A stretch of 64,000 nucleotides of DNA from Lachnospiraceae bacterium AB2028 (lineage in GTDB: Bacteria > Bacillota > Clostridia > Lachnospirales > Lachnospiraceae). Within the stretch, counting starts at the first letter, position 1. The number at the start of each line of letters is the position of its first letter. The stretch is taken from positions 186,001-250,000 of the forward strand of contig JHYJ01000008.1 in assembly GCA_000621425.1 (NCBI GenBank), written 5' to 3'. Both the position numbers and the translations under genes were made by a program. The notes beneath the pieces are model-generated. The model worked only from the letters and a program-made list of their open reading frames with translations, made no database searches and was not told where the DNA came from. Shown here piece after piece: positions 34,380-51,657 of the stretch.

Positions 34380-35480
34380 TCATACCACACCATTACTGTA
34401 AAGAGAAATCTCCCGGTCCATTTCAGCCCGGATAACCTGTGAATCACCGCCGCCCAGCCATACTTTAGTCCAATTAACGGTCTCACTTATTGCGTCATTA
34501 ATATGCCATACCGGGTTCCATCCAAAAACTGACTTTATTTTTGAACAATCAAGCCGTAGGAAATTTGCCTCATGGGGCGCATTTTCCTCGGCCCGATCAA
34601 CCCAGTCTACCTTTTTATCAGCACCGCAGCTATTCCAAGAATCACAAAACATTGAAACAAGATTTCCTGTATTCACACAGTCACAGTCATCCGGTCCCAC
34701 ATTATAGTATCCGGCATAACTTCCATCTTTATACTGCGCTGCTGCAATCATCATATATGCAAATAGAGGCTCCAGCACATGCTGATACGGTCTTGTAGAA
34801 TATGGATTTCTCACATTTATCACTCCGTCTGTTGCTATCGCCCTTACACAGTCAGGAATGATACGGTCATTGCTGAAATCACCGCCACCGATCACGTTGC
34901 CGGCCCTGGCCGTAGACACTGCCACTCTTCCGTCAGTAAAAAATGAATTTTTATATGAATGGGTCACCAGTTCAGAGCACGATTTCGAATTGCTGTAGGG
35001 ATCGAAACCATCCAGTTCATCGCACTCCCTGTAGCCGTACTCCCACTCACGGTTTTTATAAACTTTATCTGTGGTAACATTAAGAAACGACCTGATGGAT
35101 GCGGTCTGTCTTACAGCTTCACAAATATTTACTGTTCCCATTACATTGGTGGAATAGGTCTTCACAGGATCCTTGTAGGAATCCCTGACTATCGGCTGTG
35201 CTGCCAGATGCAGGACTATTTCCGGTTTATGTTCATTGAAACTTTTCAGCAGGGCATCAAGGTCGCGGATATCAGCATAAATCTGATGCAGGCCTTTTTC
35301 TGATTCAAGATCTGCAATGACAAACAGTGACGGATCCGTAGGAGATTCAAGCGAATATCCTATAACCTCTGCCCCGAAGGAAAGAAGTATGTAGGTAAGC
35401 CACGCCCCTTTGAATCCCGTGTTTCCCGTCACGAGAACTTTCTTGTTACTATAAAAATCCTTTAACTCTGATATGTTCAA
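34380..35480 (-). CDS. rfbG: CDP-glucose 4,6-dehydratase
   Basis: The 366-residue extended SDR converts CDP-glucose to CDP-4-keto-6-deoxyglucose. It has the NAD motif VTGNTGFKGAW, VLHLAAQPIVRDSY, NVTTDKVYKN, the GYRECDELDG loop, and YSNSKSCSE in the catalytic YxxxK-like position. The start is a TTG with GGTGAG before it. It is the third gene of rfbF-rfbH-rfbG. The sequence is complete with no frameshift. Confidence 0.93.
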   Translation of the reverse strand: MNISELKDFYSNKKVLVTGNTGFKGAWLTYILLSFGAEVIGYSLESPTDPSLFVIADLESEKGLHQIYADIRDLDALLKSFNEHKPEIVLHLAAQPIVRDSYKDPVKTYSTNVMGTVNICEAVRQTASIRSFLNVTTDKVYKNREWEYGYRECDELDGFDPYSNSKSCSELVTHSYKNSFFTDGRVAVSTARAGNVIGGGDFSNDRIIPDCVRAIATDGVINVRNPYSTRPYQHVLEPLFAYMMIAAAQYKDGSYAGYYNVGPDDCDCVNTGNLVSMFCDSWNSCGADKKVDWVDRAEENAPHEANFLRLDCSKIKSVFGWNPVWHINDAISETVNWTKVWLGGGDSQVIRAEMDREISLYSNGVV

Positions 35481-35514: not shown

Positions 35515-36861
35515 TTAAGAGAAAACCGCTGTGAGACACTTAACCATGTAGTCCATCTTTTCAGCCGTCATCCCCGGATATACACCTACCCAGAAAGCCT
35601 TCTCCATCACCCGATCCGTATTTTCAAGACTTCCCACTACACGGTATGCATCCGTCCCTCTGTATTCATCAAAACAAGGATGCTTTATCAGGTTACCGGA
35701 GAACAGCAGCCTCGTCTGAATATTATGAGCCTCCAGATATGCTGTTACTGCATTTCTTTCCTTACCCGCACTATCCTTGACCGTAAGCAGGAAACCGAAC
35801 CATGAAGGTGAGCTGTTCTCTGCTGCTTCAGGCAGAACAAGATATCTATCCAGCCCCTTTTCAATAAGTTGATTCCTGAAATACTCCCAGTTCTTCTTTC
35901 TCTTTTCAATAAACTCCGGGAACTTCTTAAGCTGCTCCACGCCAATGGCGGCCTGCATATCTGTAGCTTTCAGATTGTATCCGAAATGGCTGTATGTATA
36001 TTTGTGATCATAGCCCAATGGCAGTTCACCAAACTGTCTGTCAAATCTGTGGCCACAGACTCCGTCATGCCCGGACGGACAGATGCAGTCACGCCCCCAG
36101 TCACGATAGGATAGCAGCAGCCTGTGTAATACCGGATCATCTGTGTAGACAGCTCCGCCTTCGCCCATAGTCAGGTGATGCGGCGGATAGAAGCTTGATG
36201 TTCCTATATCTCCCCAAGTACCGGTATATTTAGTCACACCGTCAATGGTATACTCCGAACCCAGTGCATCACAGTTATCTTCCACCAGCCAGAGACCATG
36301 CTCATCACAGAACCTTTTCACAGCTGACAGATCAAAAGGATTTCCAAGAGTATGTGCTATCATAACAGCTTTTGTTTTAGGTGACAGTGCCGCCTCAAGC
36401 TGATCAACATCGATATTATACTGGGGTATGGTTATGTCCACGAATACCGGAACCGCACCATACTGAATGACGGGCGCAACAGTTGTAGGAAAACCGCAGG
36501 CCACTGTAATCACCTCATCACCGCGCTTAATACTCCTATCTCCCAGTTCAGGGGCTGTCAGCGCCATAAAAGCAAGAAGATTGGCAGACGAACCGCTGTT
36601 TACAATATGGGAATATTTAACGCATAAGAACTTTGACAAATCTTTTTCGAATTGATCTGAAAACCTTCCTGAGGTCAGCCAAAAATCAAGAGTCGCTTCC
36701 GTAAGGGCCTTCATCTCACATTCGTCAAAAACCCTTCCTGCATAGTTTATACGGTCGCCTTCCTTAAAACCTGTATCAGCAGTTTTGAATTCCCTGTAAT
36801 ACTCGCTGACCAGATCCAAAATCTCCTGTCTGGCTTCTTTTTCATCAGCCCATCTGTTCAT
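35515..36861 (-). CDS. rfbH: CDP-4-keto-6-deoxyglucose 3-dehydrase (RfbH/DdhC, E1)
   Basis: The 448-residue PMP- and [2Fe-2S]-dependent enzyme starts removal of the C3 hydroxyl to make 3,6-dideoxyhexoses. The site that binds PLP through lysine in relatives reads SFYPPHHLTMGEGG, with histidine in place of lysine, which is diagnostic of E1 dehydrases. Cysteines in RDWGRDCICPSGHDGVCG match the cluster loop. The ATG at 36861 follows GAGG by six bases; an ATG-like start at 36882 is less likely. The partner reductase (E3, DdhD/AscD) is not in the window. Confidence 0.93.
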   Translation of the reverse strand: MNRWADEKEARQEILDLVSEYYREFKTADTGFKEGDRINYAGRVFDECEMKALTEATLDFWLTSGRFSDQFEKDLSKFLCVKYSHIVNSGSSANLLAFMALTAPELGDRSIKRGDEVITVACGFPTTVAPVIQYGAVPVFVDITIPQYNIDVDQLEAALSPKTKAVMIAHTLGNPFDLSAVKRFCDEHGLWLVEDNCDALGSEYTIDGVTKYTGTWGDIGTSSFYPPHHLTMGEGGAVYTDDPVLHRLLLSYRDWGRDCICPSGHDGVCGHRFDRQFGELPLGYDHKYTYSHFGYNLKATDMQAAIGVEQLKKFPEFIEKRKKNWEYFRNQLIEKGLDRYLVLPEAAENSSPSWFGFLLTVKDSAGKERNAVTAYLEAHNIQTRLLFSGNLIKHPCFDEYRGTDAYRVVGSLENTDRVMEKAFWVGVYPGMTAEKMDYMVKCLTAVFS

Positions 36862-36904
36862 GTTCACCCTCACAATGCACAATTATCCATAACATCCTAT
36901 TTTA

Positions 36905-37681
36905 CTACTCCCACACCATCCAAGGTGCCCGTCCTTCCGCTATCAGCTCTTCAAGAACATTCTTTTGCCGTAGGGTATCCATGCACTGCCAAAATCCCTT
37001 ATGCTCATAAGACATCAGTTCACCTTCCTTGGCAAGTGCCTCAAGTGGCTCAGTTTCAAACGGGGTACTGTCTCCATCTATATAATCAATTACATCCCTG
37101 TTAAGCACCATAAACCCCGCATTTATGGGGTGGCCATCATTAACAAGTTTTTCCCTGAAAGAACGCACTACACCATTCTGCGCAATGTCAAGCACCCCCT
37201 TATCCTGTCTCTGTATAATTGAAGTAAGTGTTGCTTTCTTACCATGCGCATAATGAAAATCAAGAAGTTTCTTCAGATCCACATCACATACACCGTCACC
37301 GTATGTCATCATAAATGTATCTTCATCAATGTACTTCTTCACCCGTTTTATACGTCCACCTGTCATGGTATTGAGTCCGGTATCCACCACCGTAACCTTC
37401 CAAGGTTCAGTGTGCTTATCATGCACGTGCATCTTGTATTCTTGGGTCAGGTCAAATGTAATATCCGATGTATTGATAAAATAATCACGGAACCATTCCT
37501 TGATCTTGTTCTGCTTGTATCCCGCACAAATAATAAATTCGTTAAAACCATAGTGCGAATAGTATTTCATAATGTGCCAGATTATAGGCATACCGCCAAT
37601 CTCTATCATAGGTTTAGGCGTACGTTCAGACTCCTCTGATATCCTGGTACCTTCACCACCTGCTAGCAATACAACTTTCAT
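36905..37681 (-). CDS. rfbF: Glucose-1-phosphate cytidylyltransferase
   Basis: The 258-residue nucleotidyltransferase makes CDP-glucose from CTP and glucose 1-phosphate. It has VVLLAGGEGTRISEESERT with KPMIEIGG, MMTYGDGVCDVD, INAGFMVLN and KGFWQCMDTLRQKN. It is first in the rfbFHG unit, with a strong GAGGGGG site. Confidence 0.95.
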   Translation of the reverse strand: MKVVLLAGGEGTRISEESERTPKPMIEIGGMPIIWHIMKYYSHYGFNEFIICAGYKQNKIKEWFRDYFINTSDITFDLTQEYKMHVHDKHTEPWKVTVVDTGLNTMTGGRIKRVKKYIDEDTFMMTYGDGVCDVDLKKLLDFHYAHGKKATLTSIIQRQDKGVLDIAQNGVVRSFREKLVNDGHPINAGFMVLNRDVIDYIDGDSTPFETEPLEALAKEGELMSYEHKGFWQCMDTLRQKNVLEELIAEGRAPWMVWE

Positions 37682-37809: not shown

Positions 37810-38763
37810 TCAACTTTCAAAAAAGAAATTAGTTTCCATTGTCTCATCAGTTATAGATTCTATTTTTTTCAATTCTCCATTATGCAGAACTTTACAACTG
37901 TACCCCAATTCTGACATATAACTAATTACCTCATTCGGATGGTAACCAAATCGCTTTGCATGTTTTCTTAATAATTCACAATAAACTAATGGTCTATACT
38001 CTAATAATGAATGCCTTGCTCCTTTTAACACATTTTTTTCATTTCCCTCAACATCTATCTTTATAAAATCCAGTCTTTTAATTCCGTGTTCATCTACAAA
38101 ATCATCTATTGTACTAACATCACATAAAATCCTATCTATATCAGTATTTCCTGTATATTTTCCACTTTCATCAGATTTTTTTCTATAAAAGGCATCTTCA
38201 TTTGCAATAAGTGATGCAGCCTCATTAGATGCCGGTACCCAGAACTCAAATTCTCCTTTTTTATCTGACATTCCAATATTGAATGGATGATAATTTTCAA
38301 AAATCACCCCATCCATATTCAATTTTGCATTACGTAATAAATTTCTATATGTAGATGGAACTGGTTCAAACAAATAAAAGTCTATATTTTTCTGCTTCAA
38401 ACAAAATTCCAAACTAAAAATACCTACATTTGCACCAACATCAAAAACAATGGCCCCTGTTTTTTCAGAAATATAATCACTTACAAATGCCATATCATCT
38501 TTTTCTGGATCTCCCTCCAACAGAATATCCGCTTCTGCTCGGCAAATAGACTGACAAAAATCAAAGAATAAGCTTACTCCACTAGTTTTCTTCAACACAA
38601 TTCCATCTTTTCTTATTTCTATAGATTGAACCTCTGGATTGTTTTCTACAATTTTTTGGATATCTGTCAGGATATGCGTATAATCATCCCTTGCAATCTC
38701 CCAATAAAGTTTTTTTTCAATCAGTCCATTTAAATACGCAGATCTTAATTCCTCTAATCTCAT
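37810..38763 (-). CDS. FkbM-family SAM-dependent methyltransferase
   Basis: The 317-residue protein has a helical N-terminal part of about 85 residues, then the FkbM core: IVFDVGANVGIFSLEFC, YLFEPVPSTYRNLLRNA, RLDFIKIDVEGNEKNVLKGA and VYCELLRKHAKRFGY. It would O-methylate a sugar. The gene is AT-rich (15 G+C in the 60 bases from 38101, compared with 28 in the 60 bases from 36001 in rfbH), which suggests a separate origin. It is the last gene of the long minus-strand operon that begins at 49288. Confidence 0.85.
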   Translation of the reverse strand: MRLEELRSAYLNGLIEKKLYWEIARDDYTHILTDIQKIVENNPEVQSIEIRKDGIVLKKTSGVSLFFDFCQSICRAEADILLEGDPEKDDMAFVSDYISEKTGAIVFDVGANVGIFSLEFCLKQKNIDFYLFEPVPSTYRNLLRNAKLNMDGVIFENYHPFNIGMSDKKGEFEFWVPASNEAASLIANEDAFYRKKSDESGKYTGNTDIDRILCDVSTIDDFVDEHGIKRLDFIKIDVEGNEKNVLKGARHSLLEYRPLVYCELLRKHAKRFGYHPNEVISYMSELGYSCKVLHNGELKKIESITDETMETNFFFES

Positions 38764-38860
38764 AACAACCTCTTTATTCTTTCATAATGACAAATTCAGA
38801 GACAATCTCTTTCACCAAACAGTAAACTCATATACACTCGAAAAATTATCTGATATTATT

Positions 38861-40126
38861 TTAGCCTCTCTGATGTTTTCCTTCAAAACATGTACACAAA
38901 AATTTACTATCCCATTTTTTTCCCTCAAACAGCAGTTTAGCAGCAATTGATGTACTATTACCAGTTGCAATCAAGTAAACACCATTACAGTCGTAATGTT
39001 TTATATCTTTTGTTTGCATTCCGCAAATTTCAATATTTCTGTTGTTATCGTAGACAGCTACTAATTCTGCCCTGGGATAATTGTCTGAAATATATTTATA
39101 TGTTTTTGCAGTAATTTGTGTTACTCCCCATAGCGCATATTTGAATACTGATGTATCAGAGCATACTTTTTTCAAGAAATCTTCTATCCACATCATCTCT
39201 AGATCCCTAAACGGGTAATAATTAATAGGTGTACTTGGAAGTAAATTCTCCACTTCGTTCTTTATAGGAACATTGTAAAATGCATTTTCTATAAGTTCAC
39301 AATCATGCTCTATTAACCGTTCCTTATATTTCTCAAATTCCACTACGGTCGGACTCCAGTCAATATTATTCCAATTATCCTTATCATAAATAGGAATGTA
39401 TCGATGAATCCACGAAAATGTCGAGGCATATTTCGTCGGTGCAAATATAACAGGAATCCCAAGAGCCATACAGGGACTAGCACAATGTAATCTAGATGTT
39501 ACAACTAAGCTTGCATTTTCTTTATATTCATTTAATACAGCTTGCGCATATTCTTCCCACGTCTCTCCATGAGTACATCCACCGCTAGAAAAAATCTGGT
39601 GGGACAATACTTTATACTCCATTTTATGCGGACAATTCTTAATTAGAGATTCATCGGCATCTACAAAATAAATACAATTACCTTTATTATGTCTTCTCGG
39701 AAAAGTTGCAGTTAGACAGCCGTGCAAATAAACGCGAATCCCAAGATTGCTTAGCATATCATATGTAAACTCATCTCTGCAACCAATTGGTTCATATTTC
39801 CTTAGATATTCTATTTCATCCTTCGTAAATTCACCACCTATGCAATGAATTCCAAGGAAAATAGGTCGAATTTTGTCAGAAAGAATTAATGGACGTTCCC
39901 CCCAAAATGGATTAAACCAAATGAAATTTATCGGAAGAAGCAATTCTTCCCCATCATATTCAAATAAATCGTAATATTCAATTCTAACGACATCTTCTTC
40001 TGGAATCCCTAATTTCTTATACAACTGCATAACCGCTAATAATTGTATTTGGTCTCCAATATTAATAACTCTATTGCCCTCAGGATTCATACTCCCATAT
40101 TCATTTATAACACATGCATATTTCAC
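38861..40126 (-). CDS. Polysaccharide pyruvyl transferase-like protein with a C-terminal Rossmann-like domain
   Basis: The 421-residue protein starts INIGDQIQLLAVMQLY and shows PS_pyruv_trans segments: FLGIHCIGGEFTKDEIEYL, EPIGCRDEFTYDMLSNLGI, LHGCLTATF and VVTSRLHCASPCMALGIPVIF. Such enzymes add pyruvate ketals to surface glycans or belong to related transferases. Residues about 330-421 form a second small domain (YALWGVTQITAKTYKYI, VAVYDNNRNIEI, VYLIATGNS) that looks nucleotide-binding. The GTG start follows GGAG and overlaps the radical SAM stop by one base. No substrate can be named. Confidence 0.75.
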   Translation of the reverse strand: MKYACVINEYGSMNPEGNRVINIGDQIQLLAVMQLYKKLGIPEEDVVRIEYYDLFEYDGEELLLPINFIWFNPFWGERPLILSDKIRPIFLGIHCIGGEFTKDEIEYLRKYEPIGCRDEFTYDMLSNLGIRVYLHGCLTATFPRRHNKGNCIYFVDADESLIKNCPHKMEYKVLSHQIFSSGGCTHGETWEEYAQAVLNEYKENASLVVTSRLHCASPCMALGIPVIFAPTKYASTFSWIHRYIPIYDKDNWNNIDWSPTVVEFEKYKERLIEHDCELIENAFYNVPIKNEVENLLPSTPINYYPFRDLEMMWIEDFLKKVCSDTSVFKYALWGVTQITAKTYKYISDNYPRAELVAVYDNNRNIEICGMQTKDIKHYDCNGVYLIATGNSTSIAAKLLFEGKKWDSKFLCTCFEGKHQRG

Positions 40127-41187
40127 TACTTATCTCCTTTTATATCAAAATTGTAGGAAAGCATATCCACTGTTATTTCTGAAACATCATCTTCTGGGCC
40201 GTCGCGCAATGGAATCTCACAGTTTCGACAAGCTTTCCACTTCATGCCCTTTGTTTTAAGCATATCACAGCGCAATTCATACATAGAGCTTGATTCCCAT
40301 AGTTCCTTCAAAGTGTGATCCATAACATTTCCAATCGACAGCTCCTTTAACCAATCTGCACAGCACACAATAACAGTTCCGTCATTTCTGATTGTTATAT
40401 GCGAAAACGGATATCTACAAGGACGCTTTTCATTAGTTTTTATAAAGTTTGAATCAAGACTTTTCTGATGTGCTTTTTCAGCCCCATCCTTATACATCCT
40501 ATCAAAAACATCAGTTTCATCCCCTATGCCTATCTGAAAAACTTCATCAATTCCAACTTCATCAGCAACAGCCTTATACTGATCTACAAACTGTTCATTT
40601 TCATCCGTATTTGCATCAAGCATTTTGGCATAAATCTTAGGATAAGCCACACCTTTACTATCACGATATTTTCTTAAGTATAAAAGATTATTCTTTATCT
40701 GCTGCGGAAGCACATCTGAATTCGTCACATATTTCATTCTGTCATTTTTTACTGAATATACAGAAAGTCGCAGTATATCAAGTCCATAATCAACAAGCTT
40801 CTCCGCTACACTCTTTGTCAATAAAGAACCATTTGTTGTAATCTCTATTGCATCACATATACCAAGTTCCTTAATTACTTTTACCATTTCACATATGTCA
40901 GGATTAACCAACGGTTCTCCCAGTGAATACAATTTTATTAGCTTTATTGGACAGCCTGTTTCCGAAACCCATGCTTTTATATCATCAACCGATTTTCTAA
41001 ACACATCATTATCCATGTTCTTCAACGGAAGTGCCCTTGGATCCGATTCATTATTTCCGTGAAAACACATAGCACACTTGAAGTTACATATATTTGTGGG
41101 TTCTATTGAGACACACAACGGCTGTTTTAACGGAATAGCATCCTTAAGTATAATCTTGCCACCAGCATGTATATTTTTTTGCAGCAT
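40126..41187 (-). CDS. Radical SAM/SPASM-domain protein
   Basis: The 353-residue protein has the CX3CX2C cluster in EPTNICNFKCAMC, a GEPLVNP segment and ITTNGSLL. The C-terminal SPASM region has CRYPF, IVCCADW and WKACRNCEIP. Relatives modify peptides or act on sugars and aminoglycosides. Within this operon a sugar dehydratase, epimerase or oxidase role is possible. The start follows AGGAGG and lies nine bases after the upstream epimerase gene. Confidence 0.85.
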   Translation of the reverse strand: MLQKNIHAGGKIILKDAIPLKQPLCVSIEPTNICNFKCAMCFHGNNESDPRALPLKNMDNDVFRKSVDDIKAWVSETGCPIKLIKLYSLGEPLVNPDICEMVKVIKELGICDAIEITTNGSLLTKSVAEKLVDYGLDILRLSVYSVKNDRMKYVTNSDVLPQQIKNNLLYLRKYRDSKGVAYPKIYAKMLDANTDENEQFVDQYKAVADEVGIDEVFQIGIGDETDVFDRMYKDGAEKAHQKSLDSNFIKTNEKRPCRYPFSHITIRNDGTVIVCCADWLKELSIGNVMDHTLKELWESSSMYELRCDMLKTKGMKWKACRNCEIPLRDGPEDDVSEITVDMLSYNFDIKGDK

Positions 41188-41196
41188 AACAACCTC

Positions 41197-42267
41197 CTAA
41201 TAATTTGTCACAAAAAAATTATATACCCGTGAAAAACCTTCTCGCACATCTACCATATGATTCCAGCCTAATCTAACGAGTTTTTCTTCTACAGGTTTAT
41301 TTGCAATATTTACCGTATCAGTTTGATAACTGTCATCGTTATGTCTTTCCCGAAAAACAACATTGACTTTATCCTTGGGCAGACTAGCGATTATTTCAGC
41401 AACACTTCTTATCTTCATCATTTGATCTGTATTAGTGACATTATAAGCCTCCCCTCCCTCTCCATTAAAAAGAATAAGAAAATATCCCGCCACAGCATCA
41501 CTTAAATAACAAAACGGCCTTTGGGCAAGCCCATCACTATGCAGAATAATATCCGTTCCGGATATTGCATTATTCATAAAGCTGGCAAAAGTTCGTGGAT
41601 CATTTTTTATATCCATAGTCGGGCCATAAGTATGTCCTATTCTTGCTATCAGAGTTCTAATGCCATATTCCCTGTTATATGCGGCCAGCATCGTTTCAGC
41701 CATTCGCCGACTCTCATTGTAGCAGCTATGAGGATCTAAAGGATCTACCCCTCCTACCGTCTCCTCTGTAATCAGCTCAACATTACCGACGCTGCCATAA
41801 ACATCACAGGTACTAAAAAACAAGAAACCTAATAGTCTCTCCCGATCACAGTTACAAAGCAGTTTGTATGTGCCAATCACACTCGGTTCAATAACCTCAA
41901 CAGGATTGGTACCATACATTCTGGGATTCGCTATTCCGGCTGCATGTATAATATAGTCCGCAATAATCTGCTTCGAATAACCAGCAGCCAAAATATCATC
42001 ACGCAGGAAAATAAAATAATCCCTGTCAAAATATTTTCCAAACCGTAACCGTGCCTTATTCTCATTTTTTCCCTGAGCAACGATATTTAAGGATATCCCC
42101 TTAATTTCTCTTAGATAGATTAGATAGTAAGCCATATAGGAGGCCAACATCCCATACGCCCCTGTTATCAGAACAGTTTTGCCATTTAAGCTGTCCCACT
42201 CATATCCTCTTGCGTATATTTCTTCCATATCCGAAAGAATAATTTTATTATTCAGAAAATCATCCAC
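41197..42267 (-). CDS. NAD-dependent epimerase/dehydratase (extended SDR)
   Basis: The 356-residue protein has VLITGAYGMLASYMAYYL, IIHAAGIANP, FFSTCDVYGS and YNESRRMAE with the YxxxR form in place of YxxxK. It also has ARIGHTYGP and QRPFCYLSDAV. The overall pattern is closest to UDP-glucuronate decarboxylase and dTDP-glucose dehydratase relatives, and the arginine in place of the usual lysine is unusual. The GTG start has a distant AGAGG. Function within a nucleotide-sugar pathway is inferred. Confidence 0.8.
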   Translation of the reverse strand: MDDFLNNKIILSDMEEIYARGYEWDSLNGKTVLITGAYGMLASYMAYYLIYLREIKGISLNIVAQGKNENKARLRFGKYFDRDYFIFLRDDILAAGYSKQIIADYIIHAAGIANPRMYGTNPVEVIEPSVIGTYKLLCNCDRERLLGFLFFSTCDVYGSVGNVELITEETVGGVDPLDPHSCYNESRRMAETMLAAYNREYGIRTLIARIGHTYGPTMDIKNDPRTFASFMNNAISGTDIILHSDGLAQRPFCYLSDAVAGYFLILFNGEGGEAYNVTNTDQMMKIRSVAEIIASLPKDKVNVVFRERHNDDSYQTDTVNIANKPVEEKLVRLGWNHMVDVREGFSRVYNFFVTNY

Positions 42268-42285
42268 GTTTATTATGTTATCCTC

Positions 42286-42735
42286 TTATTTTCTTTGTAT
42301 TAGTTCTATCCAGTTTCCTTCTGGATCAGTACAAAAACAGCAACTATTTCCATTCTTCATTATCTGAATATCTGTCTTCTGTTGACCGCCATTATCTATT
42401 ATTGCTCTGACAACAGCTTTAATATCATCCACGCCAAATGCTATATGTGCATTCCCAATAGTATATATCGGATGATCCTTGGGAAAATCTGATACTCCCG
42501 TATCAGTAAGTACTTTTACAAGTTCGATCATGTCACCCTGACCTTGTTTTTTTCCATATGGGGTCACCAGCTTTGATGTCATCAACTCAACTTTCATGCC
42601 CAGCAGTTCATCAAACAGCCTGCCACTGTCCCGCTCCATACTGCATATCGGGATCATCTCAAAAACAGTCCTATAAAAATTCTCCAACAAAACAATATCT
42701 GCAACATAAATCCCTGTATGTCTTATTGCTATCAT
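42286..42735 (-). CDS. VOC/glyoxalase-superfamily protein
   Basis: The 149-residue protein has two VOC beta-alpha-beta modules: RHTGIYVADIVLLENFYRTV and HIAFGVDDIKAVVRAI, ending CFCTDPEGNWIELIQ with the metal-ligand glutamate. It is similar in size to methylmalonyl-CoA epimerase and lactoylglutathione lyase. In this operon it might epimerise or isomerise an alpha-hydroxycarbonyl intermediate. It lies 12 bases after the SDR gene. Confidence 0.8.
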   Translation of the reverse strand: MIAIRHTGIYVADIVLLENFYRTVFEMIPICSMERDSGRLFDELLGMKVELMTSKLVTPYGKKQGQGDMIELVKVLTDTGVSDFPKDHPIYTIGNAHIAFGVDDIKAVVRAIIDNGGQQKTDIQIMKNGNSCCFCTDPEGNWIELIQRK

Positions 42736-42747
42736 ACTGCCATATCC

Positions 42748-43488
42748 TCATTTCAGTGACATTCCGCCGTCCACCGGGATCACGGCTCCGGTAATGTAAT
42801 TTGCATCTTCAGAAGCAAGGAAACGAATTACTTTTGCTATCTGTTCCGGTTTCGATATGTATCCCATCGGTATAACTCCATCAAATCTTGAAAAATCCCT
42901 GTTTTCAAAAATCTCTGTATCCACTATCCCCGGACAAACAACATTAACCCGGACATCAGGGGCATAATTCAATGCACAGAGCTTTGAGAATTTAATCAAA
43001 GCTGATTTAGAGGCACCGTACATATAATTTTTTGTCCCGCTTGTGAATATATCCAGCCCACTCACAGAAGCGTTATTTATAATACAACCCTTTCTTTCCT
43101 TCAGATCAATTATGAATTCCTTGGTCATCAGCATTGCACCATCTACGTTTGCCCTGAATGATGCTGTCCAGTCAGAATAATCTATATCCTCAAGGCTCTG
43201 CGTGATAAAAATCCCTGCATTGTTTACCAGGACATCAATTTTTATCGATTCGTTTTCAAGGCTGTTCTTTAGGCGTACCACATCTTCCGGAATAGAAATA
43301 TCACAGGACTCAAAAACAGCATTTCCTCCATTACTGCGGATTCTTTCAGCTATTTTTTCTCCACGCTCCCGATTTCTTCCTACAATAATAACCTTTGCAC
43401 CAGCCTCGGCGAAACACACAGCCGTTTCCCTTCCGATTCCCGATGTAGCTCCGGTAACAAGAACATTTTTCCCGCTAAATCCACTCAT
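42748..43488 (-). CDS. Short-chain dehydrogenase/reductase
   Basis: The 246-residue classical SDR has VLVTGATSGIGRETAV, NNAG, NNASVSG with the catalytic serine, and YMYGASKSALIKF with the YxxxK pair. It ends GAVIPVDGG. It follows the ThDP enzyme by three bases, so it may reduce that enzyme's keto product, as YerF does after YerE in yersiniose synthesis. That link is inferred. Confidence 0.88.
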   Translation of the reverse strand: MSGFSGKNVLVTGATSGIGRETAVCFAEAGAKVIIVGRNRERGEKIAERIRSNGGNAVFESCDISIPEDVVRLKNSLENESIKIDVLVNNAGIFITQSLEDIDYSDWTASFRANVDGAMLMTKEFIIDLKERKGCIINNASVSGLDIFTSGTKNYMYGASKSALIKFSKLCALNYAPDVRVNVVCPGIVDTEIFENRDFSRFDGVIPMGYISKPEQIAKVIRFLASEDANYITGAVIPVDGGMSLK

Positions 43489-43491
43489 AAA

Positions 43492-45321
43492 TCACTCCCC
43501 AACAAGATCAATAATCATATTTTTCTTCAGTTCTTCCCTTGGCAAAAACGGCGCCAGATCCTCTAACGGTGGAGAAACAAGCGTACCATCCGATAATCTT
43601 TTTGTTGCAGACTTTGGCTCAAAAATCTGCCCCTTATCACACATCACTTCGCATAAACAAAACGTCTCACTTTCAAACACAGCTACTATTTTTTCCCTAA
43701 GCTGCTCATTATTTTCTATGCGTACATAGGGGATACCGTATGCCCATGAAATCTTCTCAAAATCGGGGAAACCAAGATCCCGGCTTTCCGGTCCCACACC
43801 AACCAAACCATTGTGAAAAATATTATTCTGTGTCTGCCTTATCTGATGATAGCCCTCATTATTGATCACAAATATTTTGATCGGGAGCCTGTTGGTCACA
43901 ACCGTCTGCAACTCCTGTATATTCATCTGAATGCTTCCATCACCTTCGATACACACCGTCGTCCTGTAATCGTTGGCTATACAGGCCCCGATAGACGCAG
44001 GAAGCCCATACCCCATGGAAGAAAGTGCGCAGTTCATTATAAATCTCTGTCCCTTTCCTATGTAGTACGACTGACTGCCCACTACGCTTGCAGACCCGTT
44101 TGAAGCTACAGTAATATGCTCTTTTCCACACCCCCTGCTTAATTCGTCCATAAAGGAATAAACATTTGTCCTGCCGGTCTGTTCAAAATGCCTTTTCATC
44201 ACCACCGGATAAGCCGACTTCCAAGACTGACAGCGCTCAGACCAGTCCTTTCTCTTATCCGGATCAGCTGCATCTATCCGTTCAGAAAGAGCCTTCAAAA
44301 ACACTTTCGCATCGGAACATATCGGTAGATCTACTCTTATTGTGGGTTTCTTTAATTCATTCGGATCTATATCCACATCAACTACATAGGCCTGTCTTGC
44401 CCAGGTGTTCACATCATATCCTACCTGCAATATGCTCAGCCTGTTGCCCACTGCCAATATCATATCGCTGTTCTGGACCGCAAAGTTTCCGGCACGGTCT
44501 CCCATTGTTCCGCCACGACCCACGTAATGCTCATCATCCGTACTTATGAGATCAATGCTATCCCAGCACGTAACAACCGGCAGATTCAATTTCTTCACAA
44601 CATCATTGAATTCATCCATCGCTCCAGCTATCCGTATGCCATTCCCGGCATAGAACACCGGACGGTTTGATGTGTTTAATTTATCAATGACCATTTCCAC
44701 AGTTTCGATCAGTTTTTCAGGCTTTATTTCTGCTTCAGGATACTTATCATCATTCTCACTGATATCAAATCCCCGTAGAGACTCTTCTTCGATCCTGGCC
44801 CCCTGAACATCTACCGGTATATCAAGCCAACATGGCCCGGGACGTCCATTTGTTGCATAATAAAAAGCCTTTTCAAGGCAATACCGTATATCTGCGGGAT
44901 CATCAAGCATCTCCGCATATTTAGTCATATTCGAAACAGCAGAAATAATATCAAACTCCTGTCCACCTAATGTTCGAAGATCCAAGCCACTATTTTTGAT
45001 GGTAAGGGATCTTTTTACCTGACCGGAAAAGACAAGCATCGGTGTCGAATCCTGATAAGCCCCCGCCACACCATTTAATGCATTTATGCCTCCCGGTCCG
45101 CTGGTTACGCATAAGGCCGCCATTCTGTTATTAACTTTAGCATAGCCTTCTGCAGCCATGCTGCATGCCTGCTCATGGTGCTGATATACACAGTGCAAAC
45201 TTTCATTATGGCCAAAGCTGTCATTTAAATGCATTGCTCCACCGCCAACCACGGTAAAGACGGTCGTTATTCCATGCTCTATCAAAAATTTTGCTATATA
45301 GTCAGATACTTTGATCATCAT
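43492..45321 (-). CDS. Acetolactate-synthase-like thiamine diphosphate enzyme
   Basis: The 609-residue protein has the complete three-domain ThDP layout. The catalytic glutamate is in YQHHEQACSMAAEGYAK, followed by SGPGGINALNGVAGA, and the ThDP/magnesium motif runs from GDGSIQM to INNEGYH. It is not housekeeping IlvB, because it lies in a glycan operon without IlvN. YerE, which adds a two-carbon unit from pyruvate to CDP-3,6-dideoxy-4-ketohexose, is a close functional model, and rfbFGH next door would make that acceptor. ATG-TGA overlap with the kinase gene suggests coupling. Confidence 0.85.
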   Translation of the reverse strand: MMIKVSDYIAKFLIEHGITTVFTVVGGGAMHLNDSFGHNESLHCVYQHHEQACSMAAEGYAKVNNRMAALCVTSGPGGINALNGVAGAYQDSTPMLVFSGQVKRSLTIKNSGLDLRTLGGQEFDIISAVSNMTKYAEMLDDPADIRYCLEKAFYYATNGRPGPCWLDIPVDVQGARIEEESLRGFDISENDDKYPEAEIKPEKLIETVEMVIDKLNTSNRPVFYAGNGIRIAGAMDEFNDVVKKLNLPVVTCWDSIDLISTDDEHYVGRGGTMGDRAGNFAVQNSDMILAVGNRLSILQVGYDVNTWARQAYVVDVDIDPNELKKPTIRVDLPICSDAKVFLKALSERIDAADPDKRKDWSERCQSWKSAYPVVMKRHFEQTGRTNVYSFMDELSRGCGKEHITVASNGSASVVGSQSYYIGKGQRFIMNCALSSMGYGLPASIGACIANDYRTTVCIEGDGSIQMNIQELQTVVTNRLPIKIFVINNEGYHQIRQTQNNIFHNGLVGVGPESRDLGFPDFEKISWAYGIPYVRIENNEQLREKIVAVFESETFCLCEVMCDKGQIFEPKSATKRLSDGTLVSPPLEDLAPFLPREELKKNMIIDLVGE

Positions 45322-46613
45322 GCATTATCTCCCATAAAATAACCATCTGCATATCTGAGCAGGCCTTCCATAGTATCTCCGGTCGAATAAAGACTCTGGG
45401 CACCTTTATAATGACCACTTATTCCATCACGCAACTCTGTAAAACGTTCCGATACACCGCCGGAAAAAAGCACCTTCTTCACATTTTCACGTTCCGGCCA
45501 AATCCGGTCTGCCGCAGTGCAGAAATTTTCAGTCATCTGCATAATGACAGATGAAAACAGATTCGCCATAGTAAAGTTTCTTTCATCTATGTTCCCTATA
45601 CTGCCTTTTACACTGTCAGTGATCGCATTTTCAAAAAATCCCATATCAAGTTTCAGGAACCACTCATTATCTGCATTACACGAATCAAAAATCCCTCTCC
45701 AGATTTCCTCATCCCCGATATTAACATTGTATGTTTCAAGAACGCTCTTTATAAATCTGAAATACACATTTAACGCTCTTCCAGAGGGGATATGCGGAAT
45801 TGTCACCAGATATTTTCCATTAAAAAATGGCCGAAGCTGCCATTTTTCATCATAAGATATTTCACCGGATAATCTCGATACCTGTGCCCCCGTACCCATA
45901 TTAAACGAAATTGTATCCATACCGCTCAAGCCTGCCCCCAGAAGTGCCGCCTGCTGGTCACCGATTGCCGGTAAAGCGGTAACCTTTACATTATCAAGCA
46001 TAAACTCCGTTGCTTCAGATGATACCGTCGGGAAAAGCACATCCGTAGCACCTATATAGCTGATTATTCCAGAACTCCACTTTGAATCTGTTATATCATA
46101 CAAGCCTGTTGCTGCTGCATTTGTCGGATGAATCTTAGGATCCTTACCAGACAAAAATCTTATCAGATAATCCCCCAGAGTATAAAAATATATGTTGCCA
46201 TCATGTTTACAGTTATTCAGAAACCACGAAAGATTACTTGACGGCAGCCCCCCCCTAAATGGCATTCCTGTTCTGATTACCAGATCCTGTACTTCCGGGG
46301 CATTCAATAGAGACCTGTCTCCAAAGTCCGTCTGCCATGATATATAATCAGTAACAGGACTACCATCCTTATCAGTTATAACAAATCCGTGCATTTCATT
46401 TGAAATACAGAGTACACACTCATTAAGGCCGTCGCAAAACTCTGAAAGGATTTTTTCGACAGTTTCACACAGGTGTATTATCTTGTCAGTTGAAGACAGA
46501 GGATCAAGCGCTACCCCCGGTGCCTGTACCCTAATATTTCGTTCTTTTTTCCCATTTATGACCAGGGCTGCCTTTATAAAGCTGGCACCGCAATCAATTG
46601 TTATAATATTCAT
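45318..46613 (-). CDS. FGGY-family carbohydrate kinase, sedoheptulokinase-like
   Basis: The 431-residue kinase has the ATPase fold: IITIDCGASFIKAAL phosphate loop, CISNEMHGFVI, NAAATGLYDI, PAIGDQQAALLGAG, MGTGAQVSRL and the VLFSGGVSERF adenosine motif. NMGTGAQ and RPFFNGKYLVTIPHIPSGRA recall sedoheptulokinase more than xylulokinase, by eye only. It would phosphorylate a ketose, possibly supplying the cyclase gene just upstream. The start follows AAGG. Confidence 0.75.
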   Translation of the reverse strand: MNIITIDCGASFIKAALVINGKKERNIRVQAPGVALDPLSSTDKIIHLCETVEKILSEFCDGLNECVLCISNEMHGFVITDKDGSPVTDYISWQTDFGDRSLLNAPEVQDLVIRTGMPFRGGLPSSNLSWFLNNCKHDGNIYFYTLGDYLIRFLSGKDPKIHPTNAAATGLYDITDSKWSSGIISYIGATDVLFPTVSSEATEFMLDNVKVTALPAIGDQQAALLGAGLSGMDTISFNMGTGAQVSRLSGEISYDEKWQLRPFFNGKYLVTIPHIPSGRALNVYFRFIKSVLETYNVNIGDEEIWRGIFDSCNADNEWFLKLDMGFFENAITDSVKGSIGNIDERNFTMANLFSSVIMQMTENFCTAADRIWPERENVKKVLFSGGVSERFTELRDGISGHYKGAQSLYSTGDTMEGLLRYADGYFMGDNA

Positions 46614-47667
46614 TCGTTGACCTTAGATAATCCATGAAAACATTTTCCAGTTTCTGACCGATCTTGACCGGATGTACACACAGATGGCTTTTCCCATCAA
46701 GCAGAGCAAAATACAATGTATCGTTTCTTACTTTCTTGTCTTTTTTTATCATTTCAAACAGTCTTAACGGATCATCAACCACAATCTCATCCGTTAAGAA
46801 ACACGTCTTTATAGTTTCCTTTATTTCTAAATAATACGCCTCATCAATAAGCCCCTCTTTATAGGCTATATAGTTGGCCACATCGATTCCCCAGATTACT
46901 CCCTGGCCATGTGGGATTTCATTATGTGTGTACGCCTCCAACGCATGTCCGAACGTGTGCCCATAATTAAGAACACGCCTGTAATCAGATTCAAATTCAT
47001 CAGCCTCGATGACTTCCTTCTTTACTTCCAGACCCCTTTTAACATAATATTCAATGTTGTCACAGGGAATATATGATTTTTCCGATTTCAGTTCTTCATA
47101 AAAATCAGCGTAATTTGTAAGAGAAAACTTAAGAATCTCACCCCAGCCGTTCAGATAATCTCCGTGCGTTAAGGTATTAATAAAATGCGTGTCAATGAAT
47201 ATTTTTTTCGGAGGATAAAAAACACCAAGCTGATTTTTAACTTCACCGAGATTAATGCCACATTTTCCCCCTATGCAGGAATCGCACATTGAAAGCAGCG
47301 TTGTCGGGAAGAAAAACCAGTCCACATTTCGCAGAAACAGGTTTGCCGCAACGGTTGTAACATCCTGAGTAATTCCCCCGCCGAAACAGACTACCTTCCA
47401 GCTCTTCTGAACCGAAAGCGAACTCCAAAAACCGATTATTTCCATAACCGTTTCCATATTCTTCTTACTTTCAACAGGTTCCATTAAATAGATTCTGTCT
47501 TCCGGAACAACTGTAAATTGATCTTTGTATAATCCATATACATTTTTATCAATTACATAAACACATTTTTCTCCAAGTCCCTGTAGCACATCAGTAAAAT
47601 CCTTTACAAATTCCACCTCGTAATCATATAGACTTGATTTTATTTTTATGCAGTCATTGCCATTCAT
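46594..47667 (-). CDS. 3-dehydroquinate synthase-like sugar phosphate cyclase
   Basis: The 357-residue protein has the DHQS-fold NAD motif CFGGGITQDVTTVAANLF, PTTLLSMCDSCIGGKCGINL, LNGWGEILKFSLTNY, VLNYGHTFGHALEAYTHNE and KKDKKVRNDTLYFAL. The usual HGEAV is HGQGV, and GGGVIGD is GGGITQD, so it is not ordinary AroB. It may belong to the sugar phosphate cyclases that make cyclitols, such as 2-epi-5-epi-valiolone or 2-deoxy-scyllo-inosose, or be an unassigned clade. The ATG at 47667 is chosen for AGGGGGAAGG just before it. Confidence 0.8.
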   Translation of the reverse strand: MNGNDCIKIKSSLYDYEVEFVKDFTDVLQGLGEKCVYVIDKNVYGLYKDQFTVVPEDRIYLMEPVESKKNMETVMEIIGFWSSLSVQKSWKVVCFGGGITQDVTTVAANLFLRNVDWFFFPTTLLSMCDSCIGGKCGINLGEVKNQLGVFYPPKKIFIDTHFINTLTHGDYLNGWGEILKFSLTNYADFYEELKSEKSYIPCDNIEYYVKRGLEVKKEVIEADEFESDYRRVLNYGHTFGHALEAYTHNEIPHGQGVIWGIDVANYIAYKEGLIDEAYYLEIKETIKTCFLTDEIVVDDPLRLFEMIKKDKKVRNDTLYFALLDGKSHLCVHPVKIGQKLENVFMDYLRSTNEYYNN

Positions 47668-47677
47668 AGCCTTCCCC

Positions 47678-49288
47678 CTACTGAATTTCATAAATACTTT
47701 CTGTCAAAAAAGAAATTGACATTGAACCGACAACTGAATCATGAAACTCCCTGTACATCTCCTTTATCTCCTCATTCAACTCTTCCCACTTATTGTCAGG
47801 GTTCAGTGTCGGAAGATTCTCGTCTGCATAGCTTTCATTGTATTTCGTCTTAAAACCATCAAAGCCTGCAATATATACATCCGTAGCATTAAGTTTTTTC
47901 ATAAGCCTCAGGCATAGGATCATTGAGTTGTCAAAATGTTCCCATCCCCTTTTTATAACAAGGTTATAGTTGATTACCATTTCTCCGTCTTCTGCATTTG
48001 TTTTTATACAGGAAAGAAGGATTTTTCTCATGCCGCCAAACGTCTCCGGATAAGCACCTTTAGCATACTCATACCGGACTGTATTGGTAAAAAAGATATA
48101 GTCACAGTCGTATAGCTTATTGACGGCATTCACCTCAATCACGACAGGATTCTCTTCTTTAATAAACTTTCTTATCTTCTCATATTCCACGGATGCCGTT
48201 TTTCCAGGTGCCAATAACAGCACTTTCCTGTCTTTTACGGTATCCCGAAGCGAACTTATTACGGCATCATCATCAACTATTCTGCTCTGGTTTTCCAGGA
48301 ATTTCTGTTCCAGAAGATCATAATCATATTTCCTGCGTTCTTCTGCTGAAAGTGATTCGATCACGTTTCTCATGTCCCTGGCATTAGTCCGGTGGTTTGT
48401 AAGAAGATATGCAATATTATTCACATGGCACTGGTACAATCCTGCAATAAAATACGCCGTTGAGTATCCCCAGGTATATTCTTCATGGAATCTTTGCATA
48501 TATGTGTCAATGGCATCCATTATTGCATTCATGTCATAGCTGCCATGCTGCTTTCGGTTAAGATAGCTTGCCACCAGCTCTGTAGTAGCATTGCCTGCTC
48601 CTCTCCCCATCCCGCTAAGCGTTGCATCCACGATTATCGTTCTTTTATCTTTCATACTTTCAACAAAATGGATGCTAAGAGCAAAAGCCAGCTGCTGATT
48701 ATTATGTGAGTGGAATCCGATACTTATTTCTTCATCAAGATTATCATTAAGAATCTTTGTGATTCGGTCAAGATCATCAAAAAACATTGCTCCGAAAGTA
48801 TCCACAACCGACAAAGAGACCGGTTTGAACTCATTCATATCCCTCGCCAGTTCAACCAATTCATCATCAGAGTATGCCAGTGTATTCGCGGCCTGAAAAA
48901 GCACCTGGTATCCTTTTTCTTTGATCCTTCTTCCTACTTCTATTCCTTCGCGATGTTTTCCGTGCGGAAAAACCACTCTGACCGCATCAATCCCCTTACC
49001 GTTGTTCTGTGGCAGGACATCTGTGTCATATCTGTCCCAGTCTATCATTGCGCAATATAGTATTTTACTGGATTTATCTGTGTGATACGGCTCAATATCC
49101 GACGGAATATGAAAAAAAGACGAACCGTCCTTATGATCTGCGTTTTTTAACCACCCACACTCTATTATATCTACATGAGCATCCTGGAGCTTGGATATCA
49201 GCCCTCTTATAACGGGCGTCCCAAAATTAGATTCGGTAATATATGCACCATCACGAAGGGTGCAGTCTAAAAGCATTATTTTCCCCAT
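47678..49288 (-). CDS. HMGL-type aldolase with an added C-terminal domain
   Basis: The 536-residue protein starts with a DRE-TIM barrel: LLDCTLRDGAYIT, IIECGWL, VRVVFPHGKHREGIEVGRRI, VVDTFGAM, IGFHSHNNQQLAFA and DATLSGMGRGAGNA. These resemble 4-hydroxy-2-oxovalerate aldolase and HMG-CoA lyase. Residues about 350-536 form a second domain with VLLLAPGKTASVEYEKI, IFFTNTVRYEYA and VYIAGFDGF that I do not assign; it resembles DUF115-like or nucleotide-sugar binding folds. It is first in the ten-gene operon, with a GGGGAAGG site. Confidence 0.8.
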   Translation of the reverse strand: MGKIMLLDCTLRDGAYITESNFGTPVIRGLISKLQDAHVDIIECGWLKNADHKDGSSFFHIPSDIEPYHTDKSSKILYCAMIDWDRYDTDVLPQNNGKGIDAVRVVFPHGKHREGIEVGRRIKEKGYQVLFQAANTLAYSDDELVELARDMNEFKPVSLSVVDTFGAMFFDDLDRITKILNDNLDEEISIGFHSHNNQQLAFALSIHFVESMKDKRTIIVDATLSGMGRGAGNATTELVASYLNRKQHGSYDMNAIMDAIDTYMQRFHEEYTWGYSTAYFIAGLYQCHVNNIAYLLTNHRTNARDMRNVIESLSAEERRKYDYDLLEQKFLENQSRIVDDDAVISSLRDTVKDRKVLLLAPGKTASVEYEKIRKFIKEENPVVIEVNAVNKLYDCDYIFFTNTVRYEYAKGAYPETFGGMRKILLSCIKTNAEDGEMVINYNLVIKRGWEHFDNSMILCLRLMKKLNATDVYIAGFDGFKTKYNESYADENLPTLNPDNKWEELNEEIKEMYREFHDSVVGSMSISFLTESIYEIQ

Positions 49289-49322: not shown

Positions 49323-49351
49323 ATTATATCAAATATTCCTTTTTCTGTATA
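49323..49351 (-). promoter_or_regulatory. Promoter of the aldolase-cyclase-kinase operon
   Basis: TATACA (49346-49351) and TATAAT (49323-49328) are 17 bases apart on the minus strand, and TGA precedes the -10 as an extended element. Confidence 0.7.
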
Positions 49352-50657: not shown

Positions 50658-51476
50658 TTACGCATCCACCAGAAGCTTATCCTCAATTTTCTTTACCAAT
50701 TCATAAGGATAGCCGCAGAAATCCACAATCTCTTCTACGCTCCTTCCATTACGGAGCATCTTCTCTATACTCTGCTCTATTCCCTCCTCAATACCTTCAT
50801 CCCTTGCATCCTGTATAACAGTCCACTCCTTCATATACTGTGTCCTCCATAACGCATTCTTTCTGCCCTTTTCTACCGCCTGTTCTATCTTTTGTGTCAA
50901 GCCACTGTCAGCTTGACCTCTCTCCACATATGTGTATAGCTTCTGCAATTCCTCCGGAAGATCTCCGCCCTGATAGCGGCAGTTGCAGAATATCTTCATC
51001 GTGCCATCCCCCAGCCTTAGATCCAGGCGCTCCTCACAACATTCCCTAAATGTGTACCTGCTTAGCCCCAATCCAAACGGATCAAATGTACAGATAAACA
51101 TCACGCTACTCTCTGGGAGTTTCCTATATGAATTACCCTTATCCATAAAATCAATGTCTATTGCCCCCTGATAATACCGGCTTCGCTTTGGAAGCTGATG
51201 AGATTCAACCGACCTATGGTTCAGATTTTCCATCTCAGCATCATATAACGATCCATTGTTATCTTCATTATAGACATCCAGTCGAATTGGCTTGCCGTCT
51301 ACCGTATAGCGAAACTCTCTCTGTGTCCGTACCTCCTTCAGTTCCCCTACAGGTTCCTGGAGCAGACATTCCAGCACTTCTCTGCACAGCTCCGGATCCT
51401 CCATTACCTTGCCGAACATGAAGTCGTCACAGAACCGCAGTTCCTCGTAATTCTTCATTACCCTCTTTTTTCTCAT
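50658..51476 (-). CDS. Rpn-family PD-(D/E)XK nuclease (putative transposase-like)
   Basis: The 272-residue protein belongs to the Rpn/T_den_put_tspse group: ELRFCDDFMFGKVMEDPELC, LLQEPVGELKEV, IRLDVYNEDNNGSLYDAEME (the D...ExE nuclease core), RSRYYQGAID and SVMFICTFDPFG. The C-terminal part has EGIEEGIEQSIEKMLRNGRS and a small helical end. AAGGAGGAG precedes the ATG at 51476. Such genes are often mobile or multicopy in Lachnospiraceae. It sits alone in the glycan island. Confidence 0.88.
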   Translation of the reverse strand: MRKKRVMKNYEELRFCDDFMFGKVMEDPELCREVLECLLQEPVGELKEVRTQREFRYTVDGKPIRLDVYNEDNNGSLYDAEMENLNHRSVESHQLPKRSRYYQGAIDIDFMDKGNSYRKLPESSVMFICTFDPFGLGLSRYTFRECCEERLDLRLGDGTMKIFCNCRYQGGDLPEELQKLYTYVERGQADSGLTQKIEQAVEKGRKNALWRTQYMKEWTVIQDARDEGIEEGIEQSIEKMLRNGRSVEEIVDFCGYPYELVKKIEDKLLVDA

Positions 51477-51657
51477 ATGAACTCCTCCTTTTTGATACCG
51501 GCAGGAGCTTAGAGATATAAAAGGGCACTTACCCCAGTCCATCCAATTCCTGCCTATAAATAAATGTGGTTATAAGCAAGAATTTTCGAACTGATTAAGA
51601 TCTGATCATAGAATACTATAAAATAAGTCTGATATACGAAAAGTTGCTTATGTTTGA

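Follow-up and report, generated by a model that had tools for sequence, protein, structure and literature searches.

Gene content of the locus

The 64,000-nucleotide stretch analyzed here (the window) is part of contig JHYJ01000008.1 of Lachnospiraceae bacterium AB2028 (positions 186,001 to 250,000 of the contig; genome size 3.48 Mb), and it holds an array of genes that we consider a candidate for the synthesis of an unusual, long-branched sugar. Ten open reading frames (ORFs), which a first-pass annotation made from the sequence had joined in one operon, were all found on the minus strand between positions 37810 and 49288, and each of the family assignments made there was backed by a Pfam match. 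In the direction of transcription, the genes encode an HMGL/DRE-TIM aldolase of the 4-hydroxy-2-oxovalerate-aldolase fold with an added C-terminal domain (ALD, 47678-49288; Pfam HMGL-like), an AroB-like phospholyase/cyclase (CYC, 46594-47691; DHQ_synthase), an FGGY-family sugar kinase (KIN, 45318-46613; FGGY_N), a YerE-like lyase dependent on thiamine diphosphate (ThDP) (THDP, 43492-45321; TPP_enzyme N, M and C) and a classical short-chain dehydrogenase/reductase (SDR, 42748-43488; adh_short), the best NCBIfam match of which, meso-2,3-butanediol dehydrogenase, was below its cut-off. These are followed by a glyoxalase-superfamily protein (VOC, 42286-42735; Glyoxalase), an extended SDR of the NAD-epimerase family proposed to be a branch-ketone reductase (EPI, 41197-42267; Epimerase), an accessory radical SAM/SPASM protein (RSAM, 40126-41187; Radical_SAM and SPASM), a member of the polysaccharide pyruvyl transferase family (PVT, 38861-40126; PS_pyruv_trans) and an FkbM methyltransferase (FKBM, 37810-38763; Methyltransf_21). 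Successive genes are separated by -14, -20, -4, 3, 12, 18, 9, -1 and 97 bases.

The operon had been taken to end at FKBM. The array was instead found to continue on the same strand, 128 bases further on, with rfbF (glucose-1-phosphate cytidylyltransferase, 36905-37681), rfbH (cytidine diphosphate [CDP]-4-keto-6-deoxyglucose 3-dehydrase, 35515-36882), rfbG (CDP-glucose 4,6-dehydratase, 34380-35480) and a gene for a 788-residue glycosyltransferase with GT2 and DUF6492 domains (32000-34366), at intervals of 22, 34 and 13 bases. Upstream of ALD, a promoter-like site (49323-49351, minus strand; TATACA-17-TATAAT with TG, 10 of 12 positions matched) is present as had been reported, but its reading as the one promoter of the operon was not supported, as promoter-like matches in the region (46) did not exceed those in shuffled sequence (53.8, standard deviation 7.7). 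FKBM and PVT (31% and 34% G+C, respectively; 37810-40126) are far poorer in G+C than the window (42.8%), which suggests that they are later arrivals.

The CDP-3,6-dideoxy sugar genes and the YerE-like enzyme

RfbF, RfbG and RfbH of the window all scored above the curated cut-offs of NCBIfam-type models (362 bits for TIGR02623, cut-off 300; 423 bits for TIGR02622, cut-off 278; and 702 bits for NF011936, cut-off 423). By established chemistry, these three enzymes together provide CDP-4-keto-3,6-dideoxy-D-glucose.

Among Protein Data Bank (PDB) entries, THDP was most similar to 8rph (E 5e-124), with acetolactate synthases at about 1e-70; its identity was 37% to 8rph and 29% to Escherichia coli IlvI. 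THDP and 8rph were split from the IlvI side of a tree with 100/99 support, on long branches that call for a long-branch warning. The motifs EGDGS...INN and HHEQA, corresponding to the ThDP motif and the region of the catalytic Glu, are present. By these comparisons, THDP appears nearer to a characterized YerE-like enzyme than to acetolactate synthase. The 8rph chain carries CDG in place of GDG, and we take it to be JanthE, an equation of our own that follows the motif description in a review. In the excerpts of that review considered here (PMC12247030), JanthE is a YerE-like lyase with a CDG motif, YerE joins pyruvate to CDP-4-keto-3,6-dideoxyglucose en route to yersiniose A, ErwE prefers 4-hydroxylated 2-oxo acids and serves erwiniose, and MMAR_2332, the YerE-like enzyme of Mycobacterium marinum, serves caryophyllose; more than 200 YerE-like enzymes are predicted, and for the vast majority no sugar structure is given as known. 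Since enzymes of this type act on CDP-4-keto-3,6-dideoxyglucose and rfbFHG are adjacent, the acceptor of THDP appears to be encoded next door, and we propose from this gene context that THDP acylates CDP-4-keto-3,6-dideoxyglucose. The idea of one pathway for an unusual sugar was supported; the first-pass annotation had overlooked both rfbFHG and the YerE-like nature of THDP. Gene identities and gene context both give good support to the frame of the predicted pathway, with rfbFHG and THDP as its backbone.

Recurrence of the gene set in other genomes

A one-genome-per-species collection was scanned with the cyclase alignment as query, and the best 80 of at least 590 stretches were kept (loci are cited by L or G number). 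Seven other genomes (G361, G723, G560, L015, L016, L017 and L022) also have the ALD-CYC-KIN-THDP set, with identities of 40-68%, so the grouping is more than chance. CYC and THDP together were found at 18 loci (the window, G361, G723 [L018], G560, G772, G695, L015, L016, L017, L020, L021, L022, L025, L029, L032, L033, L036 and L037), which by record title span Bacillota, Spirochaetota, Nitrospirota, Verrucomicrobiota, Thermodesulfobacteriota, Pseudomonadota and Actinomycetota. A gene for an enzyme that forms a 2-oxo acid was detected in 17 of the 18: an HMGL aldolase in 14, NeuB in L020 and HpcH/HpaI in L036 and L037. The sole exception was L021, a contig of 7.6 kb; L013/G772 is likewise short (10 kb), and its aldolase gene (26% identity, 104 bits) runs off the contig. 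By contrast, such an aldolase was present in only 4 of 15 Lachnospiraceae loci with THDP and no CYC (p 1e-4, Fisher, kinship ignored), where HMGL, NeuB and HpaI were the queries. These 15 were drawn, mostly as the most similar, from the 104 of 397 family genomes that matched THDP at E <= 1e-130, and contig ends truncate some of them. Thirteen of them carry an extended SDR of cluster C7 (three of the matches at 26-34% identity) and ten have one or more rfb genes with an identity of no less than 49%. Since the YerE-like gene is common in the family and has these neighbors, C4-branched dideoxy sugars may be frequent in Lachnospiraceae, although this is no more than a hint. CYC itself is rare. Whole-genome searches, which also contributed relatives to the set of loci, detected it in 2 out of 398 genomes from the phylum and, at 1e-60, in 5 out of 397 from the family; the genome of the window is part of both counts.

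The rfb genes were sought in 17 module genomes, that is, those of the 18 loci other than L029. RfbH was found in 15 of these (14 above cut-off) compared to 83 of 250 genomes of the family (p 8e-6, Fisher, with two shared genomes removed and kinship ignored); inside the family alone the contrast was 4 of 5 to 81 of 248 (p 0.045, likewise with kinship ignored). RfbG was found in 14 of the 17, a figure that stands without a background count. At least one of rfbG and rfbH was detected in all 17 genomes and both in 12. In Rhizobium sp. AC27/96 (L037, 6581-15388), RfbF, RfbG, HpaI, SDR, cyclase, epimerase and THDP follow in order within one 9-kb stretch, representing the same module with another aldolase.

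Taken together, the loci form nested gene sets: rfb genes, THDP and an extended SDR as a base, to which are added an aldolase, then SDR and cyclase, and then the kinase. As a control, the 55 AroB loci of the same scan were inspected, and none carried THDP, ALD, KIN, RfbF, RfbG or RfbH at the thresholds set. Another 12 CYC-type loci had no THDP in the stretch (L019, L023, L024, L026, L027, L028, L030, L031, L034, L035, L053 and the doubtful L038). Seven of these carry ulosonic acid genes: KdsB-like in L024, L027 and L035, a match to Pfam CTP_transf_3 only in L023, PseF-like (below cut-off) in L028 and L031, and NeuB in L034. In addition, L025, one of the loci with THDP, has a KdsC-type ulosonate phosphatase, above its subfamily cut-off, beside CYC. 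At five of the loci, from other phyla (L023, L024, L027, L034 and L035), an SDR-cyclase pair stands with an SIS isomerase, a KdsB-like transferase or NeuB, and with a 2-hydroxyacid dehydrogenase in four of the five; these genes apparently belong to another, unnamed ulosonic acid pathway.

The AroB-like cyclase

The best NCBIfam match of CYC was TIGR04425, described as an AroB-related putative sugar phosphate phospholyase (cyclizing), at 321 bits with a cut-off of 400; the model is a 'hypothetical equivalog', and our search of the literature on TIGR04425 gave nothing useful. Of six CYC relatives tested, L014, L023 and L033 passed this cut-off and L015, L031 and L037 did not. In a tree, CYC and its relatives formed a single clade (100/95 support) apart from 19 AroB rows, and the genome's other AroB-like gene grouped among these with Lachnospiraceae AroB. 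A grouping of CYC with true AroB would have spoken against the first-pass reading, and the tree showed none; CYC is not the housekeeping AroB. The tree used 20 of 57 rows labeled AroB, one of which (L053) belongs to the CYC clade by its position and by its context (RfbH, SDR, CYC and HpaI); 2-deoxy-scyllo-inosose synthase (DOIS) was on a very long branch, and neither DOIS nor L041 was firmly placed. Alignment and tree were made without L019, L029, L035 and L038 (L029 has overlapping ORFs, L035 is truncated and L019 and L038 are odd). A role of CYC as a second AroB was considered and ruled out by the separate clade and the gene context; its score against the aroB model (233 bits) also fell short of the cut-off of 305.

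A predicted structure of CYC (predicted local distance difference test [pLDDT] score, 93) showed the AroB fold (template modeling [TM] score, 0.86), and DOIS and ValA were also among the fold matches, with 4p53 as the match for EEVS-type enzymes, in keeping with a sugar phosphate cyclase fold that is common to CYC, DOIS and 2-epi-5-epi-valiolone synthase (EEVS). At the residue level (alignment numbering; add 11 for the 365-residue ORF), 30 positions do not vary among 56 AroB sequences, L053 not being one of these, and 28 of the 30 were also invariant in 25 CYC rows. The 28 include E174, H234, H250, D126, K132, N142, R110, R227, N231, H238 and K309, and the two that are not invariant, G111 and G233, are both glycines. 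CYC thus shares the AroB fold and most invariant positions, yet differs from AroB in clade and in the rfb/ThDP context that is absent from all 55 AroB loci. R227 and N231, which we take to correspond to R264 and N268 on the substrate side of 3-dehydroquinate synthase (the roles of the other kept residues being presumed likewise), were invariant in all 25 CYC rows, whereas DOIS (2d2x) has G and E at these positions. The substrate of DOIS has no carboxylate. As these two residues are kept in CYC and missing from an enzyme with a carboxylate-free substrate, the simplest inference is that CYC would act on a compound like 3-deoxy-D-arabino-heptulosonate 7-phosphate (DAHP), that is, a 3-deoxy-2-ulosonate with a terminal phosphate.

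One relative (48% identity; L019, 7633-8946) lies in a 437-residue ORF with an extra N-terminal part and has none of the query genes around it; it may be a chimera or an odd fusion. Plasmid and phage matches to CYC were below 60% identity, at the level of AroB, and the one context examined had shikimate-type neighbors; a plasmid search with THDP gave no match.

The aldolase, kinase and reductases

By sequence and by fold, the best PDB matches of ALD were 3dxi (BVU_2661) and DmpG-type aldolases, with which it shares the barrel fold and metal-site residues. D12, H192 and H194 (numbered without the start Met) were invariant in 12 of 12 sequences, and we take them to be the metal site from their DmpG counterparts. 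ALD differs from these enzymes in an extra C-terminal domain of about 200 residues (47678-48280), which was present in all 12 aligned sequences and, for the window protein, had no match in a Pfam search.

The kinase had been described as sedoheptulokinase-like. Its NCBIfam matches were instead weak and to FGGY models, glycerol kinase first (43 bits, cut-off 590), with no sedoheptulokinase model among them, although the library may lack a dedicated one. A GDQQ motif was found in 10 of the 11 rows of the KIN cluster, the window included, and not in L016. All ten loci with KIN belong to a single (starred) cyclase clade with 11 members, G772 being the remaining one. Identity of the HMGL aldolase to that of the window was 56-65% in loci with KIN (seven relatives) and 26-32% in loci without it (six relatives), a split consistent with an aldolase that would act on unphosphorylated aldoses if a kinase comes next and on aldose phosphates if there is no kinase.

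At L029, an SDR of the window's type sits between ALD and CYC. An extended SDR, of the EPI type (cluster C8), the C7 type or L020's own, was detected in 15 of the 18 CYC-THDP loci, and C8 and C7 were never found in one locus. We take EPI to have the role of YerF, reduction of the branch ketone. VOC and FKBM were present, among the 18 loci, only in the window, G361, G723 and G560, and the same four carry EPI. C8 was also found in L036 and L037, and VOC and FKBM were absent from loci with C7. This co-occurrence indicates that the four loci probably share a further modification. RSAM was also found in G361 and G560, and PVT had no relative in the other loci compared.

Proposed pathway

From the gene identities, their co-occurrence and the kept active-site residues, we infer the following substrates, order and product. 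The product of the operon together with rfbFHG would be a CDP-linked 3,6-dideoxyhexose that carries a long C4 branch and resembles caryophyllose or erwiniose, a reading to which we give a probability of roughly 0.55. RfbF, RfbG and RfbH would generate CDP-4-keto-3,6-dideoxy-D-glucose. ALD would join pyruvate and an aldose in a condensation, forming a 3-deoxy-2-ulosonic acid that KIN would phosphorylate at the terminal position to a DAHP-like compound. CYC would then carry out a transient oxidation followed by an AroB-style elimination of phosphate, and SDR would reduce the ketone that CYC leaves, a seven-carbon chain ending as 3,7-dideoxyheptulosonate. The resulting 2-oxo acid would be decarboxylated by THDP and added to C4 of the CDP sugar, EPI would reduce the branch ketone, and FKBM, RSAM, VOC and PVT would decorate or reshape the product. 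The order ALD, KIN, CYC, SDR, THDP and EPI was preferred because it was the only one found to give each gene a substrate, to make use of the carboxylate-side residues of CYC and to leave EPI a ketone. A 3,7-dideoxyheptulosonate donor would give a 1,3,4,5-tetrahydroxyhexyl branch, matching that of M. marinum caryophyllose as described in the portion of PMC5706390 that was consulted.

The pathways of yersiniose A, erwiniose and caryophyllose combine genes for CDP-4-keto-3,6-dideoxyglucose, a YerE-like lyase and a reductase-type gene, as here. The 4-hydroxy-2-oxo acid donors of ErwE (PMC12247030, in excerpt) may, in our view, likewise have an aldolase origin. By contrast, the AroB-like enzyme, the FGGY kinase and the classical SDR that are part of the present array receive no mention for these three sugars in the excerpts considered, nor is an aldolase or AroB-like gene named there among the M. 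marinum caryophyllose genes. For aurantose the literature search surfaced only the review PMC12247030, and for the Rhodopseudomonas palustris sugar it gave nothing useful. No characterized pathway with the whole set had been known to the first-pass annotation, and none came to light in the literature searched; work on YerE-like clusters and longer donors lay outside that search, so an earlier description may be in print. The gene set is real, is conserved and has a modular make-up, and no pathway named in those excerpts contains its AroB-like step. The CDP sugar and YerE-like frame is of a known kind, and the interest lies in the role of the AroB-like enzyme.

More generally, and as a tentative proposal only, an AroB-type enzyme and an SDR may strip the terminal phosphate from ulosonate phosphates, and the omega-deoxy ulosonate (or carbocycle) left behind would be joined to CDP-4-keto-3,6-dideoxyglucose by a YerE-like lyase, with the same SDR-CYC pair editing ulosonates in cytidine monophosphate (CMP)-sugar loci of other phyla. 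If true, ulosonate editing by CYC would supply missing steps for a methyl-ended branch of the caryophyllose type and perhaps for carbocycle-fused sugars, and an AroB-type enzyme that handles a carboxylated substrate outside the shikimate pathway would add a new branch to the sugar phosphate cyclases. The making of long-branched and ring-fused bacterial sugars is largely open, and the nested gene sets offer ordered questions on single enzymes, with Butyrivibrio sp. MB2005 and Lachnospiraceae bacterium NC2004 as named isolates that carry the module. ThDP enzymes of this kind are also sought after as biocatalysts for tertiary alcohols.

Points against the proposed pathway and alternative readings

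Several observations weigh against the long-branch pathway. For the cyclase, ring closure is the usual outcome when AroB-type enzymes eliminate phosphate from a DAHP-like compound, and we know of no precedent for a halt before the aldol step; CYC stays below the TIGR04425 cut-off, and K177, which we take to be an active-site Lys of AroB, is Lys in 55 of 56 AroB sequences and in the window protein but His in 4 of 25 CYC relatives. For the aldolase, a Tyr follows LRDG where DmpG has His (3dxi also has Tyr), and the score against the 4-hydroxy-2-oxovalerate aldolase model was 79 bits with a cut-off of 286. For THDP, 5ahk, presumably PpYerE, scored no better than the acetolactate synthases (1e-64), which speaks against the YerE-like assignment. 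The module also varies in content: KIN is found in 10 and the classical SDR in 15 of the 18 CYC-THDP loci, rfbG was not detected in the genomes of G560, L020 and L036 nor rfbH in G695 and the genome of L037 (among the 17 searched), and the rfbH of L020 is partial and below cut-off. L053 combines RfbH and HpaI with no THDP in the stretch, and no ulosonate gene was seen in the parts examined of L019, L026, L030 and L038. Finally, the YerF-like role of EPI and C7 is assigned purely from context, and the loci were chosen by similarity to CYC and are not independent draws.

The point on ring closure leads to the strongest alternative, in which the CDP sugar and the coupling are the same but KIN and CYC act on the attached branch, so that a cyclohexane (inositol-like) ring is hung on or fused to the dideoxyhexose, akin in spirit to bradyrhizose or to caryose. 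The coupled branch would be a 3-deoxy-2-ketose, the DAHP frame minus its carboxylate, and the active site of CYC is nearly complete. Moreover, a carbocycle-fused sugar does exist: in excerpts of the respective papers, bradyrhizose is a ten-carbon bicyclic sugar (PMC9912281), and a candidate cluster of eleven genes with a dTDP-glucose 4,6-dehydratase was proposed for it (PMC4743980). With closure on C1', however, the extended SDR that 15 of 18 loci carry would have no ketone to reduce, and SDR and CYC are also found alongside ulosonate genes where the stretch has no ThDP gene. In addition, the constancy of R227 and N231, presumed to lie on the carboxylate side, would be unexplained on a branch that has lost its carboxylate. 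The AroB-like step may leave either a deoxy chain or a carbocycle, but cyclization after coupling fits less well than the order preferred here, and we regard it as unlikely.

A second alternative is that two separate pathways adjoin, one of the yersiniose type (rfbFGH, THDP and EPI, with pyruvate as donor) and one comprising ALD, CYC and KIN. Many genomes of the family do have THDP but no CYC (matches to THDP in 104 of 397 and to CYC in 5 of 397, at the thresholds given above), and 11 of the 15 THDP loci without CYC had none of the aldolase types sought. Chance adjacency is nevertheless difficult to reconcile with an aldolase-type gene in 17 of 18 CYC-THDP loci, across seven phyla and in differing gene orders, and this reading appears quite improbable. 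The least probable reading, which the analysis did not support, is that put forward at first, in which KIN supplies sedoheptulose 7-phosphate or another ketose phosphate, CYC converts it to a C7 cyclitol and the rest is built on this; although the kinase gene adjoins that of an AroB-like cyclase whose fold matches DOIS and ValA too, the CYC residues are those of AroB and not of DOIS (EEVS being compared by fold only), no sedoheptulokinase match was found, and the link to the rfb genes and the YerE-like enzyme would be left unexplained.

Surface and flagellar surroundings

A flagellin gene lies at 57659-58477, and several glycosyltransferase genes and a LicD-family gene surround the locus. In G560 (L012, 1172-3322), FlgL-like and FliW-like genes, each with a score below cut-off, lie some 4 kb from the module. 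The predicted product of the long-branch pathway is probably placed on flagellin or another surface glycan; given these neighbors in the window together with the flagellar neighbors in G560, a flagellar glycan is a fair guess, but only a guess. One gene past the upstream end of the operon, an ORF on the minus strand (50658-51542) weakly resembles a PD-(D/E)XK transposase family, its score of 26.7 bits being just short of the cut-off of 27.4. At the edge of the window, also on the minus strand, positions 2-850 encode a pseudaminic acid synthase, PseI (403 bits, cut-off 340), indicating a second surface-sugar pathway close by.

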